Positions 10,009 to 16,250 of a stretch of 64,000 nt of DNA are shown one piece after another (positions within the stretch are counted from its first letter, which is position 1; every line of letters begins with the position of its first letter). Location: assembly GCF_903772925.1 (NCBI RefSeq), contig NZ_LR812090.1:4157105-4221104 (forward strand), read 5' to 3'. The notes under the pieces are model-generated. The model made no database searches and was not told the origin of the DNA. It saw nothing but the letters and a program-made list of their open reading frames with translations. Origin of the DNA: Alteromonas macleodii (GTDB lineage Bacteria; Pseudomonadota; Gammaproteobacteria; Enterobacterales; Alteromonadaceae). A program made the translations under genes and the position numbers.

Positions 10009-11268
10009 ATGAAGATGAGAACAGGGTTGTTTAGAAAAGAAGCTATTGATGAGCAATCAAACGCAGTAGAGGGCAGATTTTTAATGACGCCTAAACCTGC
10101 CTATTCAGCGATAGCTGGGCTACTTGTCGTGTGGATTGTGGCAGTTGCTGTTTACCTAAACATGGAAAGTTATGCACGAAAAGCTTCGGTAACTGGATGG
10201 TTAGAACCAAGCCATGGTGTTTACAAGCTTTATTCAGACGCAAGGCGAGGAAAAGTGCTCGACGTTATAGCCAGTGAAGGTCAATTAGTTGAAAAAGGCG
10301 CACCGCTAATAAAAATTAGTTACAGCAGCAAGGATGCGTTAGGCCATAGAGTCAGTACACAGTTACTTGCCGAACTAGAGTCGAAACAAAACCGAACTCA
10401 TCAAAGTATTAAGCGCCTGCGCACTTTGCACCTAGCACAGCAACAGCGCTTGGAAGAGCAGCTTTCCCAGGCTAAACATACTTCAGCAACGTTGAAAGAC
10501 ATTATTGCTTTAACCCGATCACAGTGGCTTTTAGCATCTAAACAATGGGCAAAAGCACAAACCTTACTTGAACAGGGACATATTAGCCGTGCCGACTTTG
10601 AAACCCATTCGCTTAATCGCTTAAATGCAGAGCAGAAACTTGCTTTAGCGAAAAAGGATTGGAATAACGAGCAAGCCAACATAGCAGCAATAAGTCATGA
10701 GCTAGCTACCTTGCCTGAACAACAAGCCAATGAGTTGGCAAATATAGAGAACACATATAGCGATCTCACTCAACAAATTGTAAGTCACAAAAGTAATGCT
10801 GAAGAGATAATTTATGCGCCCCGCAGCGGCGTAATTTCAGGCCTGCATGTTAGGACCGGTTATACGGTAGATAGCTCTCGACCTCTACTCACACTGCTCC
10901 CTCAAAATGCTGACATTCAAGCGCGAATTGCGGTCCCCGTGCGCTCAGCAGGATTTTTGCGAGAAGGACAAGCCCTACATATACGATATGACGCCTTCCC
11001 TTATCAAAAGTTTGGTGTGCAGTTAGGCGAGATAGTCAATATTTCCTCGTCGCTTGTCTTACCGGAAGAACTTGCCGATGTACCTATTTCAATTAGCGAG
11101 CCAGCCTACTTGGTTACTGCCACCTTAGATACAAACGAAGTATTGGCTTACGGCAACAGTATTTCATTGAAAGCAGGCATGACATTTTCGGCAGATGTTC
11201 AATTAAGTCAACGCACGCTTATGGAATGGTTAATGGAACCGCTTTATAGCATTAAAGGGAAGCTGTAA
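10009..11268 (+). CDS. HlyD-family membrane fusion protein (peptide export adaptor)
   Basis: 419 residues. It would bridge the inner-membrane exporter encoded next to it and an outer-membrane TolC-type channel encoded elsewhere. One N-terminal membrane segment (~residues 30-50, AIAGLLVVWIVAVAVYL) is followed by a split biotinyl-lipoyl-like domain (VLDVIASEGQLVEKGAPLIK, then APRSGVISGLHVRTGYTV), a long coiled coil (~120-255) and a beta-barrel region. This layout matches adaptors paired with bacteriocin exporters. ATG 10009 touches its GGG. The in-frame ATG at 10015 has AGGG six bases upstream and is the better start. The gene is 2 bases from the exporter gene. Confidence 0.85.
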   Translation: MKMRTGLFRKEAIDEQSNAVEGRFLMTPKPAYSAIAGLLVVWIVAVAVYLNMESYARKASVTGWLEPSHGVYKLYSDARRGKVLDVIASEGQLVEKGAPLIKISYSSKDALGHRVSTQLLAELESKQNRTHQSIKRLRTLHLAQQQRLEEQLSQAKHTSATLKDIIALTRSQWLLASKQWAKAQTLLEQGHISRADFETHSLNRLNAEQKLALAKKDWNNEQANIAAISHELATLPEQQANELANIENTYSDLTQQIVSHKSNAEEIIYAPRSGVISGLHVRTGYTVDSSRPLLTLLPQNADIQARIAVPVRSAGFLREGQALHIRYDAFPYQKFGVQLGEIVNISSSLVLPEELADVPISISEPAYLVTATLDTNEVLAYGNSISLKAGMTFSADVQLSQRTLMEWLMEPLYSIKGKL

Positions 11269-11270
11269 TC

Positions 11271-13547
11271 ATGATGAGTTCAACACACCCTCTTTCGGTA
11301 CAACTATTTCATACAACAAGCAGGGTACCGGTTATTTTGCAAAGCGAAGCGGCTGAGTGCGGGCTTGCTTGTATGGCAATGATTGCACAGTACTACTCTG
11401 ACAAGCGAGATCTCAATACTTTGCGTCAAAGCATATCCGTGTCATTGCGAGGAACAACTCTAAAAGACGTAATGCGAATTGCCAGTGACTTAGGCTTTCA
11501 AACCCGAGCGGTAAAGATAGAAATGGAGCATCTTGCTCAGCTATCTTGTCCAGCTATTTTGCACTGGGATATGAATCACTTTGTTGTTTTGACAAAAGTA
11601 AGAGGGAAGCATATTTTCGTTAATGATCCCGCGCTAGGAAAAAGAAAGCTCAATTTTGCAGAAGCCTCAAAATACGTCACGGGGATCGCGCTTGAGGTCT
11701 CACCAAGTGACACATTTAGCCCAAAAAAATCTGCGCCCCAACTTGGGCTTACTCAGTTTTTCTCCCGCGCCATTGGCTTTAAACGTAACCTCCTAACCCT
11801 TTTCGCCTTATCGGTAGTGCTGCAGATTTTTGCCCTTGCTGCACCCTACTACATGCAAACAGTGGTAGACGATGTATTAATTTACAACAACGATGCTTTG
11901 CTCAAAGCTCTCGCTATTGGCTTTACTTTATTACTGGTTATAGAAACCTTTACAAGCGGTATAAGAAAGTTCGTTATCTTGTCCGTTTCATCCAGCCTAC
12001 AGCTACAAATGTCTGCCTCTGTATTTAAACATCTTTTAGCTCTTCCCTTGGACTATTTTGATAAACGCCATATTGGTGATGTGGTATCGCGCTTTGGTTC
12101 CTTGGCTAGCATTCGGGAGTTTTTAACAACAGGGGTCGTTACCGCCATGCTAGATGGAATAATGGCAGTCGTTACCTTGGCGGTGATGAGTTTATATTCG
12201 TTCAAACTCACTTTGGTTGTCGTGGTAATCATGCTTATCTATCTGGCCATTCGTTTGGGACTCCTGCCATTTATAAAAAGGCATACCACAGAGCGCATTG
12301 CCTTGGCAGCATCTGAGCAAAGCCACTTTATGGAAAGTGTACGGGCAATTTTACCTATTCGCGTGTATGGACAAGAAATACAGCGTCACGGCATTTGGCA
12401 AAACAAGCTAGTTGCAACGCTTAATAAAGACATCACCTTAGGGAAATTTAATATAGGTAGCGCACTTGCAAACCAATTGCTATTCGGTGTTGAAAACTTG
12501 GTCGTTGTTTATATTGGCGCGAACCTTGTCATGCAAGGTTCCCTTTCAATAGGCATGTTGCTAGCTTTTATGGCATATAAGACAAGGTTTGTAGGTGCTA
12601 TCGACGGTATAGTTAACAAGCTTATTGAGCTTAATATGCTAGGCGTTCATTTCAACCGCTTAAGCGATATTTTACTTACACCAGTAGAGCAAAAAACTAA
12701 AGTTCAGCCGCTATATAACACTGAGCGTTCGCTCGGCGTACACAGTACACATACGCGTAACCGCTCGGCTCCTACCTCAGATTCACTTAACTCTCCCCTA
12801 TTCCACCAGCCCAATGCTGACTTGCTGGAAAGTAGCACATTCGACGGTAGCGCTATGACAAGTGCTACCGCGCTTAGGGTGAAGTCACTTAGCTACCGCT
12901 ATGGGGAAAATAGCGAGTGGGTATTTAAAAACCTGACACTTTCAGTAAAAACCGGTGAAATCGTAGCCATTATAGGTGGCAGCGGCTGTGGTAAAAGCAC
13001 GCTGCTGAAGTGCTTAATGGGCCTGTATCCAGCCTCGCAAGGTAGCTTAGAACACCCTAGTACTGTAAACCCTGTCATCGCTTCTGTGCTTCAAGAGGAC
13101 GCCTGCTTAAGCGGCACTATAGGCCAAAATATCTGTTGTTTTGAAGAAGTCCCCAACCTCAAGAAAATGGTTTATGTTGCACAACTTGCCTGTATCCATC
13201 ACGACATTATGCACATGCCTATGCAATATCACTCGCTGGTAGGCGATATGGGTAGCAGCTTAAGCGGTGGACAAAAGCAGCGCTTGCTTTTAGCGAGAGC
13301 GCTATATCAAGAGCCCGACATTTTGTTCTTAGACGAAGCAAGTAGCCATTTAGATATGGCCAATGAGGCGCAGATAAATCACCACCTCAAATCCTTGAAT
13401 ATGACCCGAATTATTGTGGCTCACCGCCCCCAATCTATCGCCATGGCAGACAAAGTTTATCGCCTAGAACAAGGCACATTACAACCATGCTCTCCCTCTG
13501 AAGTAACAGGAAGCGCAACATCTGGTAAACACGGAGAAACACTATGA
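11271..13547 (+). CDS. C39 peptidase-containing ABC exporter (double-glycine bacteriocin type)
   Basis: 758 residues. This exporter type cuts leader peptides after Gly-Gly and exports the core peptide. The N-terminal C39 peptidase has Cys30 (AAECGLACM), His103 (DMNHFVVL) and Asp119 (VNDPALG). A membrane domain of ~6 helices follows (~165-440). The ATPase has Walker A GGSGCGKST (569-577), signature LSGGQKQR, Walker B ILFLDEAS and the switch His in IVAHRP. A poorly conserved Ser/Thr-rich linker of about 60 residues separates the two halves. It lies 2 bases after the adaptor gene and overlaps the regulator gene by 4 bases. All catalytic residues are intact. Confidence 0.92.
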   Translation: MMSSTHPLSVQLFHTTSRVPVILQSEAAECGLACMAMIAQYYSDKRDLNTLRQSISVSLRGTTLKDVMRIASDLGFQTRAVKIEMEHLAQLSCPAILHWDMNHFVVLTKVRGKHIFVNDPALGKRKLNFAEASKYVTGIALEVSPSDTFSPKKSAPQLGLTQFFSRAIGFKRNLLTLFALSVVLQIFALAAPYYMQTVVDDVLIYNNDALLKALAIGFTLLLVIETFTSGIRKFVILSVSSSLQLQMSASVFKHLLALPLDYFDKRHIGDVVSRFGSLASIREFLTTGVVTAMLDGIMAVVTLAVMSLYSFKLTLVVVVIMLIYLAIRLGLLPFIKRHTTERIALAASEQSHFMESVRAILPIRVYGQEIQRHGIWQNKLVATLNKDITLGKFNIGSALANQLLFGVENLVVVYIGANLVMQGSLSIGMLLAFMAYKTRFVGAIDGIVNKLIELNMLGVHFNRLSDILLTPVEQKTKVQPLYNTERSLGVHSTHTRNRSAPTSDSLNSPLFHQPNADLLESSTFDGSAMTSATALRVKSLSYRYGENSEWVFKNLTLSVKTGEIVAIIGGSGCGKSTLLKCLMGLYPASQGSLEHPSTVNPVIASVLQEDACLSGTIGQNICCFEEVPNLKKMVYVAQLACIHHDIMHMPMQYHSLVGDMGSSLSGGQKQRLLLARALYQEPDILFLDEASSHLDMANEAQINHHLKSLNMTRIIVAHRPQSIAMADKVYRLEQGTLQPCSPSEVTGSATSGKHGETL

Positions 13548-13855
13548 AAAACCATGAAGTAAGAGAACCCGCAGTATTGATGACAGCTGCTGAGCGTATG
13601 CAAATAGATGCGAGTGGCATTACCGCTCGTGACACCGTTATTCCCATGGACTGTCTATCGAAACGTGAGCTACAGGTAGTACACAAAATAATGGAAGGCC
13701 GCTCTAACAAAGTGATCGCCTCTGAGCTATTTATCAGCGAGCGAACCGTTAAGTTTCACTGCGCCAACATTTATAAAAAACTCAATATCAGTAGCCGTTC
13801 AGCACTTATCGCCTGCTGCTTTAGAACCCTTTACCGAGAAGTGGTTTCGCTTTAA
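13544..13855 (+). CDS. Small LuxR/GerE-type transcriptional regulator
   Basis: 103 residues. Residues ~38-98 form a LuxR-type helix-turn-helix (LSKRELQVVHKIMEG, then SNKVIASELFISERTVKFH and LNISSRSA). There is no receiver or ligand-binding domain, only ~35 N-terminal residues. Its start overlaps the exporter stop (ATGA), so it belongs to the same transcript. It probably regulates the peptide locus, but its signal cannot be inferred. Confidence 0.8.
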   Translation: MKNHEVREPAVLMTAAERMQIDASGITARDTVIPMDCLSKRELQVVHKIMEGRSNKVIASELFISERTVKFHCANIYKKLNISSRSALIACCFRTLYREVVSL

Positions 13856-13902
13856 GCGCATCCACTTTTTAACTCAACACGCCACTACAAGGAGCGTACT
13901 TT

Positions 13903-14124
13903 ATGAAACACCATCAACCAAATAACAACCAACTAAATCTAAACCAACCAGAAAGCACCGAGCCCGTTGCTTTAGCGGAAGCTCAGCTGTTTGAGGTATC
14001 CGGCGGTCTACGCATTCGTTTAAGCGATACCGTACCGGTAGTCGGCCCTAGCCCCAAAGAGCCGGTTTATATAACCATGGCTATTGGTGAAGGCGGCGGC
14101 AAACTACCGGATATTTTGTCATAG
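13903..14124 (+). CDS. Putative RiPP precursor peptide with double-glycine leader
   Basis: 73 residues with a strong ribosome site (AAGGAG). The leader ends at residue 35 in LAEAQLFEVSGG, which fits the classic pattern with Leu -12, Leu -7, Val -4 and Gly-Gly -2/-1, the substrate signature of the C39 exporter next door. The 38-residue core starts LRIRLSDTVP and ends GEGGGKLPDILS. It has no Cys and mixes Asp/Glu with Ser/Thr/Lys, as needed for ATP-grasp ester or amide crosslinks. It lacks the microviridin TxKYPSD motif. The N-terminus is rich in Asn and Gln. It sits between the exporter/regulator genes and the ATP-grasp gene. Export is well supported; the modification is inferred. Confidence 0.72.
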   Translation: MKHHQPNNNQLNLNQPESTEPVALAEAQLFEVSGGLRIRLSDTVPVVGPSPKEPVYITMAIGEGGGKLPDILS

Positions 14125-14236
14125 CTCTAACCCCTTAGCGTCAGCATATGGATAGCCAGTGTTTACGATCTGTCCATGTGTTGCGCTTTTGACAAACAGA
14201 TGTACTTAATCGATAACCCATTAGCAAGGAGCGCGA

Positions 14237-15235
14237 ATGCACGTTGCACTTTTAGGAAGTGAGCAAGACCCACAAATTCAACACGTAGCGAAGGCGCTTA
14301 GTCAAACAGCTACCCCTTTTTATATCGCTAATACGCAACAATTCGGTTCAGCCTGGAGTATTAGCTATGACCCTGATTTTGATGACGGATTGGTTCATTT
14401 CAATTCAACGACACTATGTGACCAACCCAGAGTGACTTTTTCGAACACCAAAGCAGCCTATTGGCATGAATATTTGCCGGGGACTTCGTTGACAGCATCA
14501 GGTGAGAAGAGTCGTCCCGATCACGCTTTGGATAACAAAATTGAGCCCGAAAAGCCTTATGATAATCCACCTAAACTGCTAGAAAATGCTACTTGGACCG
14601 AGCAAGAACGGGCAAGCACTTTACTTTGTTGGTTTAGCTATAGCGACATCAAATGGGTCAATTCTATCGATGCCGTGAGAAGCCACCAATGTAAGCCTTA
14701 TCAATCACGCATTGCTGGCAAGTTAGGTGCACATATACCCTACACCTTTGTTGGCAATGCCCCCGAAGTCGCCTCTCAGTTTTGCAACAACATGCGAGAA
14801 GTTATTTATAAGCCGGTGCGCGGGGGGCGCACGGTACAATTTGTAAACAAACAACCTAATATGCGCCCGCTCCTAAATACACTTTTAAATGAGCGCCCTG
14901 TGACCTTTCAAAAATACATTATGGGCGAAAATGTACGTAGCTATGTGCTTGGCAATGATGTGCTAAGCGTACAAATCGACTCAAGCGAACTAGATTATAG
15001 AAACGACGACAATGCCAGTGTGTCTGTGACTATTATCCCAAACGAGGTGCAGCGTATGGCTATTAAAATTTGCCAAGCGTTAGGCATGCATTGGTGCGCA
15101 ATCGACTGGCGTAGAAGTGCGAAGGGAAAGTACTTTTTTCTAGAGGCAAACCCCAGTCCTTATTTCCTTAAAGTAGAGAACGATACCGGCCTGAATATAA
15201 CAGACAAATTGGTGGCACTGCTTTTAAAACATTAG
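14237..15235 (+). CDS. ATP-grasp peptide ligase (RimK/graspetide-synthetase-like)
   Basis: 332 residues. The likely reaction is ATP-dependent activation of an Asp/Glu side chain in the precursor and ligation to Ser/Thr/Lys. Features are the pre-ATP-grasp segment WVNSIDAVRSHQCKPYQS, substrate-style IPYTFVGNAPE, the nucleotide lysine in VIYKPVRGG (K192), FQKYIMGENVRSYVLG, and metal-binding E303/N305 in FLEANPSPYF. This order resembles MvdD/MdnC-type maturases more than glutathione synthetase. It has AAGGAG upstream and is last in the locus. A plain RimK-like amino-acid ligase is the alternative, but the adjacent leader peptide argues for RiPP maturation. Confidence 0.78.
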   Translation: MHVALLGSEQDPQIQHVAKALSQTATPFYIANTQQFGSAWSISYDPDFDDGLVHFNSTTLCDQPRVTFSNTKAAYWHEYLPGTSLTASGEKSRPDHALDNKIEPEKPYDNPPKLLENATWTEQERASTLLCWFSYSDIKWVNSIDAVRSHQCKPYQSRIAGKLGAHIPYTFVGNAPEVASQFCNNMREVIYKPVRGGRTVQFVNKQPNMRPLLNTLLNERPVTFQKYIMGENVRSYVLGNDVLSVQIDSSELDYRNDDNASVSVTIIPNEVQRMAIKICQALGMHWCAIDWRRSAKGKYFFLEANPSPYFLKVENDTGLNITDKLVALLLKH

Positions 15236-15444
15236 GGTTAGATTAATTCTAAGTGCCTAACTCTTTCGGGTTGTTTCAGGCTTCAAAATTAAAAGAGCTT
15301 ATGCGGGATTGTACTATGAAGTTCCTCTATACATTAGAAGCCGAAATGCGCGATGTCCTGAGGCACAGAGGTAATGCATTTGCATTACTTTTGTTGTCGT
15401 ACTAAAATTTGAAGTAACCCGATTTGTATATTTTAGAGATTGTT

Positions 15445-15774
15445 ATGACACGCGTTGCTTTAGAAACGGAATCAACACTTACCGAACGTTTTCAAACTAC
15501 AGTGCCTAGTTCTGTTCGACAGGCATTACGTTTAAGCAAAAAAGACAAAATTAAATATGCCATTCAGGCTGACGGTAGCGTTGTTATATCGCGTGTAGAA
15601 ACACAAAAAAGCGATCCCATAATTGGTGAGTTTTTGGCGTTCATTGCTCGTGATATCCAGGCTAATCCAGAAAAGGTAGAACCGTTATCTACAAGCATGC
15701 GTGAGAGCGTGAGTGAATTGATTCAAGGTGTTGAGGTTGACCTAGACGCTCCTTTGTTGGATGAGGACGAGTAA
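15445..15774 (+). CDS. prlF: PrlF-family antitoxin (AbrB/SpoVT fold)
   Basis: 109 residues from ATG 15445; an upstream TTG at 15424 is in frame but less likely, since PrlF is ~111 residues. The N-terminal swapped-hairpin AbrB-like domain is visible (ESTLTERFQTTVPSSVRQAL, then KDKIKYAIQADGSVVISRV). The acidic tail (VDLDAPLLDEDE) is typical of PrlF. It binds and neutralises the RNase toxin YhaV and represses the operon. Two bases separate it from yhaV, in the same order as in E. coli. Confidence 0.88.
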   Translation: MTRVALETESTLTERFQTTVPSSVRQALRLSKKDKIKYAIQADGSVVISRVETQKSDPIIGEFLAFIARDIQANPEKVEPLSTSMRESVSELIQGVEVDLDAPLLDEDE

Positions 15775-15776
15775 GT

Positions 15777-16250
15777 TTGGAAAAAGCGATACCAATGGTC
15801 ATAAACGGTTGGACACTCTATGCTCATCCACTATTTAAAGATCAGTATCTCAGTCTTAAAGTTCAGGTTGAAGCTTTACGGGAAAAAGATCCGCAAAATT
15901 ACAAAAAGAAAAATGTAACTAAGCGATTAGCTGCTATCCAAAGACTGGCCTTTGAACTCATACCCCATGATCCTACTCACGCAAATTTCCGCCAAGTGAA
16001 TACATTAGGCGATGACAATAAACACTGGTTTCGAGCAAAGTTTTTTCAACAGTATCGACTTTTTTTTCGTTTCCACCTTGAATCAAAGGTTATTGTATAT
16101 GCATGGGTGAATGACGACACAAACAAGCGAGCCTATGGAAGTAAAACAGATGCTTATAAAGTTTTTGAAAAGATGGTGAAATCTGGTCACCCACCAAAAG
16201 AATGGAAGGATCTTTTAAAAGCAGCTAAGAATGAACTTCTCCCACTTTAA
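15777..16250 (+). CDS. yhaV: YhaV-family RNase toxin
   Basis: 157 residues (E. coli YhaV is 154). YhaV is a ribosome-dependent endoribonuclease of the RelE-like superfamily. Family landmarks are NGWTLYAHPLFKDQY, KDPQNYKKKNVTKRL, QQYRLFFRFHLESKVIVYAW, the NDD and RAYGSKTDAY segment, and SGHPPKEW. It begins at TTG 15777 just after the antitoxin stop; an in-frame ATG at 15795 is the alternative. No truncation is seen, so the module appears functional. Confidence 0.9.
   Translation: MEKAIPMVINGWTLYAHPLFKDQYLSLKVQVEALREKDPQNYKKKNVTKRLAAIQRLAFELIPHDPTHANFRQVNTLGDDNKHWFRAKFFQQYRLFFRFHLESKVIVYAWVNDDTNKRAYGSKTDAYKVFEKMVKSGHPPKEWKDLLKAAKNELLPL

Follow-up and report, generated by a model that had tools for sequence, protein, structure and literature searches.

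We analysed a stretch of 64,000 nucleotides from Alteromonas macleodii (contig NZ_LR812090.1, positions 4,157,105 to 4,221,104; hereafter the window), in which five adjoining genes on the + strand, at positions 10009-15235, encode in this order a HlyD-type adaptor, an exporter that joins a C39 peptidase to an ATP-binding cassette (ABC) transporter, a LuxR-type regulator, a small precursor peptide and an ATP-grasp ligase. The proteins of this cluster, the precursor excepted, gave Pfam matches above cut-off to HlyD_3, to Peptidase_C39 together with ABC_membrane and ABC_tran, to GerE and to a RimK-like ATP-grasp family. An earlier note, made from this DNA sequence, had described five same-strand genes with short gaps or overlaps, a double-glycine leader on the precursor, intact C39 residues in the exporter and an intact ATP-grasp ligase; all of the open reading frames (ORFs) were recovered in place, and the leader does carry Gly34-Gly35. 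We consider it likely that these genes serve the biosynthesis and export of a graspetide of plesiocin descent whose core has been reduced to one ring. The locus is more than a chance assembly, since its gene order recurs in relatives and the precursor motif is strongly constrained. The elements on which this interpretation turns are:

13903..14124, + strand: precursor peptide, 73 amino acids; leader, residues 1-35 (13903-14007), ending in SGG; mature part, residues 36-73 (14008-14121)
14053..14121, + strand: conserved C-terminal motif PKEPVYITMAIGEGGGKLPDILS, residues 51-73; ratio of non-synonymous to synonymous substitution rates (dN/dS) 0.020
14074..14091, + strand: predicted ring Thr58-Met-Ala-Ile-Gly-Glu63, an i, i+5 ester proposed from T58 and E63
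14237..15235, + strand: ATP-grasp ligase, 332 amino acids, predicted graspetide synthetase; 101.7 bits against TIGR04187 versus 78.8 bits against rimK_fam

The precursor and its ligase across the genus

Matches to the ligase at an expectation value (E) of 1e-5 or below were present in 49 of 59 genomes of the genus. Six of them (E 1.4e-7 or weaker, 20-28% identity, confined to the C-terminal part) were set aside as RimK-type, which left 43 genomes; these yielded 44 loci, as genome G037 holds two, and 43 loci were counted as orthologous. The earlier note had named ligase homologues without a linked precursor as a sign against its proposal; our neighbourhood survey found a core-bearing precursor linked to the ligase in 42 of the 43 genomes. 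A profile built from these 42 precursors re-finds all of them at E ≤ 1e-10 among the 59 genomes, by construction. The 16 ligase-less genomes hold no precursor at this threshold; nine are without a match at E ≤ 0.5 and seven have weak ones (0.002-0.18). Co-occurrence of precursor and ligase across the 59 genomes is correspondingly tight (Fisher 1.5e-13, with a profile made from the same 42 precursors). Because hslU follows in 40/43 loci and the gene for 3-hydroxy-3-methylglutaryl-coenzyme A (HMG-CoA) reductase precedes within the fetched stretch in 32/43, the locus has been inherited in place.

At the end of the precursor's leader, LAEAQLFEVSGG stands before the junction with the mature part and LRIRL after it. 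No Pfam or NCBIfam family was matched above cut-off by the 42 members, the matches listed being weak and, by name, unrelated or bacteriocin-like. Residues M1, T58, A60, G62, E63, G65, G66 and P69 are invariant in the alignment of all 42 precursors, each of which has a single core; a conserved donor (T58) and a conserved acceptor (E63), as expected of a graspetide, are thus present in 42/42. Their neighbours vary: ahead of the ring Thr stands I in 26 cores, F in 8, Y in 7 and T in 1, and the ring Glu is followed by G in 21, D in 16, N in 3 and T and H in 1 each. Pooled over the 11 closest relatives, dN/dS stands at 0.020 for the motif (the C-terminal 23 codons), 0.19 for the spacer behind the double glycine, 0.38 for the first and 0.14 for the second part of the leader, 0.084 for the ligase and 0.064-0.069 for the other three genes; these values are rough because the synonymous distances amount to 0.8-2.2.

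The earlier note had also named clustering of the ligase with RimK or glutathione synthetase as a sign against its proposal. The best scores of the ligase are with graspetide synthetases rather than with these two, MdnC (5ig9) excepted. TIGR04187 (GRASP_SAV_5884) is the best of 12 models; the microviridin models TIGR04185 and TIGR04184 (MvdC/MvdD) gave 62.3 and 59.3 bits, below their cut-offs of 425 and 475. PsnB of the plesiocin system is the best match in the PDB (7drm_A, E 2.2e-18), and the AlphaFold2 model of the ligase (predicted local distance difference test score 89.6) shares the graspetide synthetase fold (Foldseek and VIA). Residues K153, K192, R234, D290, E303 and N305 are invariant across 43 rows, window included. 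The ligase might instead be RimK-like, extending the C-terminus of a peptide or protein by amino acids or making an ordinary amide, with the double-glycine peptide next to it unrelated. The RimK-like Pfam match fits this proposal, RimK structures share the fold too, and RimK outranks MdnC when PDB sequences are searched; the NCBIfam, PDB-sequence and structure comparisons favour graspetide synthetases, so that an identity as RimK or glutathione synthetase is disfavoured and we find the RimK-like alternative hardly credible. The graspetide kinship of the locus is well supported.

A precursor relic with an intact leader and a decayed core lies beside a lone LuxR gene in genome G038 (L216:2332-2505), which has no ligase and, at this site, no exporter. 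In six divergent loci, an extra gene for a small protein, hydrophobic by eye, stands between LuxR and precursor (L060:4412-4717, L062:4224-4532, L063:8299-8523, L064:4232-4450, L065:4272-4547 and L070:4244-4552); the four of these six proteins that were examined matched no Pfam family above cut-off.

Plesiocin kinship and the joint absence of the outer pair

A ligase profile matched 78 of 395 genomes in 24 of 52 genera family-wide (E ≤ 1e-20), and the closest named relatives are Alteromonas. From a contig scan for ligase relatives the best 80 of 161 stretches were kept; 27 belonged to the same Alteromonas clade and were left out, and 53 loci were used. The relatives beyond this clade, among the best 80 of 161, come from Cellvibrio, Rheinheimera, Aliiglaciecola, Pseudoalteromonas, Janthinobacterium, Massilia and many cyanobacteria, with ligase identities of about 29-36%. 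In a tree of 103 rows, built by a quick method, with many weak inner branches and without L177 (which has a stop in the taken stretch), the ligase is placed with the synthetases of TTxAxGEE precursors, PsnB itself being outside the tree.

The motif TTxAxGEEGG is common in the precursors of these relatives, and the Cellvibrio mixtus precursor has five units and a sole PDB match, the plesiocin precursor PsnA2 (E 0.07). Searched against PDB sequences, our precursor profile gave three weak matches, one of which is PsnA2 (...GGKGGPYTTLAIGEE, E 0.74); this match is not significant alone, and the kinship of the core to PsnA2 is backed by the TTxAxGEEGG motif of the relatives. The TTxAxGEEGG systems of Cellvibrio, Rheinheimera, Aliiglaciecola, Janthinobacterium, Massilia and cyanobacteria resemble the Alteromonas locus in their homologous ligases (about 30-36% identity), and 23 of the 53 further loci show HlyD and C39 matches inside the stretch that was fetched, several of these loci being truncated. 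They differ in that each unit has two ring-forming pairs and a precursor up to five units. Their leader begins with HPF in 12 of 12 aligned cases, a motif retained by 2 of 42 precursors in the Alteromonas clade.

With plesiocin and PsnB (PDB 7drm-7drp) the locus shares the family and fold of the ligase, the core T-x-A-I-G-E, the double glycine before the core and the use of a single ligase (PMC8939145). Plesiocin is described as tetravalent, each repeat carrying two ester links (PMC12291112). Unlike plesiocin, the Alteromonas locus has one repeat, with other residues in place of the outer Thr and Glu; the predicted ring coincides in position with the inner T/E of plesiocin-type units. The doubled TTxxxxEE of plesiocin's group (group 2) occurs in 0/42 Alteromonas-clade cores, one of which has TT with Glu-Asp. 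Tandem repeats are likewise absent, all 42 being single; single-unit canonical relatives also exist. The microviridin and marinostatin systems (MvdC, MvdD, MdnB, MdnC) share the synthetase fold, and the microviridin systems differ in the lower scores of our ligase against their models and in their use of two ligases (PMC8939145).

We surveyed cores in 97 loci, of which 81 contained 137 counted cores and 16 none; two pattern matches (L133, L146) had been dropped as chance, and the pattern overlooks variant units; inspection by eye showed such units in L128, L158, L167 and L175. Outside the orthologous Alteromonas loci, and with L071 included, precursors carry one core (35), two (13), three (4), four (3) or five (2). 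Among 44 distinct 8-residue cores, 18 have both an outer donor (T/S) and an outer Glu and 25 have neither; the sole mismatch, TTQAIGED (L059), has Asp and hence still a carboxylate. Among 107 distinct 15-residue windows the corresponding numbers are 63, 43 and 1. The outer pair has the highest normalised mutual information (0.401; runner-up pair 0.393), and shifted-pair controls gave p 0.27-1, some being empty, as at +7 and +8, where no Glu occurs.

On the quick tree the reduced state requires four changes; it is seen in the Alteromonas clade, in L119/L120 and, separately, in Pseudoalteromonas. The Pseudoalteromonas YVTMAIPEDG precursors also miss outer Thr and Glu on their own branch of the tree; these systems differ in having several precursor genes in most loci and a Pro in place of the Gly before the ring Glu. 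Loci L144, L149, L159 and L168 have cores such as YVTMAIPEDG or YVTQAIPEDG without an outer pair, and three of the four hold several precursors. Canonical and reduced units occur together, in the same or neighbouring precursors, in four loci of Rheinheimera, Janthinobacterium and Massilia, which are outside the tree-test count. The joint loss supports, from sequence alone, a nested pairing in plesiocin-type cores, with few independent events behind it. The earlier note had proposed a graspetide-like pathway with a core of no known motif family. The graspetide-type ligase and the assignment as a locus for a ribosomally synthesised and post-translationally modified peptide are supported; a wholly new core is rejected, since the cores of the relatives show the plesiocin-type motif, of which the Alteromonas core is, as read from these alignments, a reduced form.

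In genome G037 the reduced locus is L035; its second locus, L071, is canonical and has two precursors with TTMA[LI]GEEGG. In L071 a further ORF with a double-glycine leader and an unrelated sequence (L071:7924-8058) lies between exporter and ligase.

A predicted single ring and competing explanations

Graspetide synthetases phosphorylate a carboxylate with ATP, which Ser, Thr or Lys then attacks (PMC13097080). By analogy, the Alteromonas ligase would bind the leader and phosphorylate the side chain of Glu63, and Thr58 would attack the activated Glu63, closing an ester ring of the six residues T-M-A-I-G-E and releasing one water (18 Da); the predicted mass of the 38-residue mature part would fall from 3974.19 to 3956.18 Da. 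A single ester ring is predicted because Thr58 and Glu63 are the only invariant donor and acceptor and are spaced as the inner pair of plesiocin. In view of the C39, ABC and HlyD domains, the C39 domain would cut after Gly34-Gly35 and the ABC/HlyD pair would export the 38-residue product. The operon is probably under the control of the LuxR protein.

The main rival concerns the number of rings. The outer ring could have been remodelled, a wide outer amide between Lys52 and Asp70 being formed besides the Thr58-Glu63 ester, so that a bicyclic product arises with loss of two waters. Position 52 is Lys, Ser or Thr in 33/42 precursors (Lys in 31), position 70 is Asp or Glu in 38/42, and the geometry would be nested as in plesiocin; the association of the two positions is weak (Fisher 0.026, kinship ignored). 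Neither residue is invariant, whereas T58 and E63 are, and Lys52 sits in a KPP/KEP stretch found too in some canonical relatives (Aliiglaciecola, L155) that have no acidic residue after the unit. We regard such a second link as unlikely.

The ligase-less genomes bear on another alternative. Thirteen of the 16 keep HlyD, C39 exporter and LuxR at the same site, two keep LuxR only and one keeps none; the exporter-regulator trio is therefore the more durable part, and precursor and ligase form an end module. The locus might secrete an unmodified or partly modified double-glycine peptide signal, with LuxR and exporter as the signalling core and the ligase as an accessory. The retention of the trio and the position of the LuxR gene inside the operon would suit this proposal, as would the unlinked small peptide with a double-glycine or GA-type leader (weak leader match, E 0.007-0.18) that six of the 13 genomes hold. 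Against it stand the strong purifying selection on ligase and motif and the lack of a precursor at E 1e-10 in the 16 genomes, where the best match is the degenerate relic in G038. We think it quite improbable that signalling is the function.

Several observations count against a one-ring graspetide of plesiocin descent. The ligase's score for TIGR04187 is far under the curated cut-off of 350, even though it is the best of the 12, and the rank of MdnC below RimK points the same way. In genome G007 ligase and exporter are present, and the ORF with a double-glycine leader before the ligase (L056:8801-8995) has no core motif. A donor at 52 and an acceptor at 70 occur together in 32/42 precursors, a possible second link. 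Regarding the outer pair, the ligase tree gives four independent contrasts, three in the same direction and one unchanged (p 0.25), and among the variants overlooked by the core pattern, YHTLALYEEGG in L158 (by eye) would be a second mismatch, with Glu but without an outer donor. The trio kept in the 13 genomes may, finally, serve other peptides.

Whether the product is a monocyclic graspetide with a single Thr-Glu ester, single-copy and inherited in place at one site in most of the genus, its outer donor and acceptor having disappeared jointly, as they did on a separate occasion in Pseudoalteromonas, we judge to be evenly balanced. If so, the trait would be secreted and fixed in the genus, unlike a natural product of sporadic occurrence. 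Several links per precursor are the usual output of characterised graspetide synthetases, the potency of plesiocin is reported to rise with the number of cyclised motifs (PMC13097080), and monocyclic microviridin products have been reported (PMC9826346). One enzyme family with one-pair, two-pair and many-repeat substrates offers a natural series in which to ask how ring number is encoded and what use a lone ring has. Plesiocin and the microviridins are potent serine protease inhibitors (PMC13097080), and the graspetides characterised by 2022 are all called protease inhibitors (PMC8939145); by descent, serine protease inhibition would hence be the default guess for the Alteromonas product. Microviridins and plesiocin have native targets and ecological roles described as elusive (PMC9826346), and a locus in 43/59 genomes, adjoining hslU in 40 of the 43, is a tractable place to seek them.

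The earlier note had called the locus apparently undescribed. This holds in a limited sense: in the literature searched we found no paper naming both Alteromonas and graspetide, and a published table of more than 20,000 predicted graspetides (PMC13097080) may list the locus. The claim to novelty narrows: in place of an unknown core there is a plesiocin-type variant that is reduced, spread genus-wide and probably single-ringed.

Exporter, regulator, hairpin and surroundings

The remaining features of the locus are:

10009..11268, + strand: HlyD-type membrane fusion protein (exporter adaptor), 419 amino acids; PF13437 HlyD_3, 55.9 bits (cut-off 22.2)
11271..13547, + strand: C39 peptidase/ABC exporter, 758 amino acids, C39 domain at residues 19-147; PF03412, PF00664 and PF00005 above cut-offs
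13544..13855, + strand: LuxR/GerE DNA-binding protein, 103 amino acids; PF00196, 76.9 bits
14137..14187, + strand: RNA hairpin between precursor and ligase, with a short run of U behind it; local fold z -2.49

The exporter contains all of the C39 residues named in the earlier note (Cys30, His103 and Asp119) and also a Walker A and an LSGGQ motif. Its best NCBIfam model is TIGR03796 (NHLM_micro_ABC1), at 441 bits under the curated cut-off of 853, which leaves it outside NHLM-type membership; group 2 graspetides are reported to co-occur often with NHLM-type transporters (PMC13097080). The HlyD protein scores 125.9 bits against TIGR01843 (type_I_hlyD), under the cut-off of 208.65. HlyD and C39 genes adjoin the ligase in 39 of the 43 orthologous loci, L055 ending at a contig end. 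The LuxR gene overlaps the exporter gene by 4 bases, and its product matched a helix-turn-helix domain only, with no receiver or sensor domain among the Pfam matches. A LuxR match lies next to the ligase in 42/43 loci of the genus, one being truncated (L069), and in 10 of the 53 further loci; apart from one Thalassolituus metagenome-assembled genome, these ten carry Alteromonadaceae names.

The 13 ligase-less trios (L215, L218-L229) sit between HMG-CoA reductase and hslU. The unlinked small peptides in six of these genomes have a proline-rich tail behind the leader (L260:2428-2604, L261:2291-2479, L262:2322-2486, L263:2184-2372, L264:2312-2500 and L265:2339-2509), and their genes adjoin similar-looking neighbours; they are possibly other cargo of the exporter.

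The sequence AAGGAG stands shortly 5' of the start codons of both precursor and ligase. Two of 200 shuffles were as stable as the local fold at the hairpin between these genes, and 9 of the hairpin's 16 pairs show changes on both sides among the 11 relatives; four further relatives (L043-L046) were not alignable over it. It was absent from the output of the terminator scan, and the promoter scan was uninformative (10 promoter-like sites versus 9.8 expected; 4 terminator-like sites versus 6.2 expected). The hairpin is possibly an attenuator or 3' stabiliser and might let precursor mRNA exceed ligase mRNA.

Upstream of the cluster, the HMG-CoA reductase gene lies on the opposite strand, and the opposite-strand genes downstream are presumably hslU and hslV. 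As hslU follows in 40/43 loci, a mobile island is unsupported. A defence system was also considered and rejected: PADLOC matched the ATPase part of the exporter and nothing in the ligase or in the PrlF-YhaV toxin-antitoxin pair (Pfam) directly 3' of the cluster (15424-16250). This pair is probably a lineage-specific insertion, because its match adjoins only some of the related loci.
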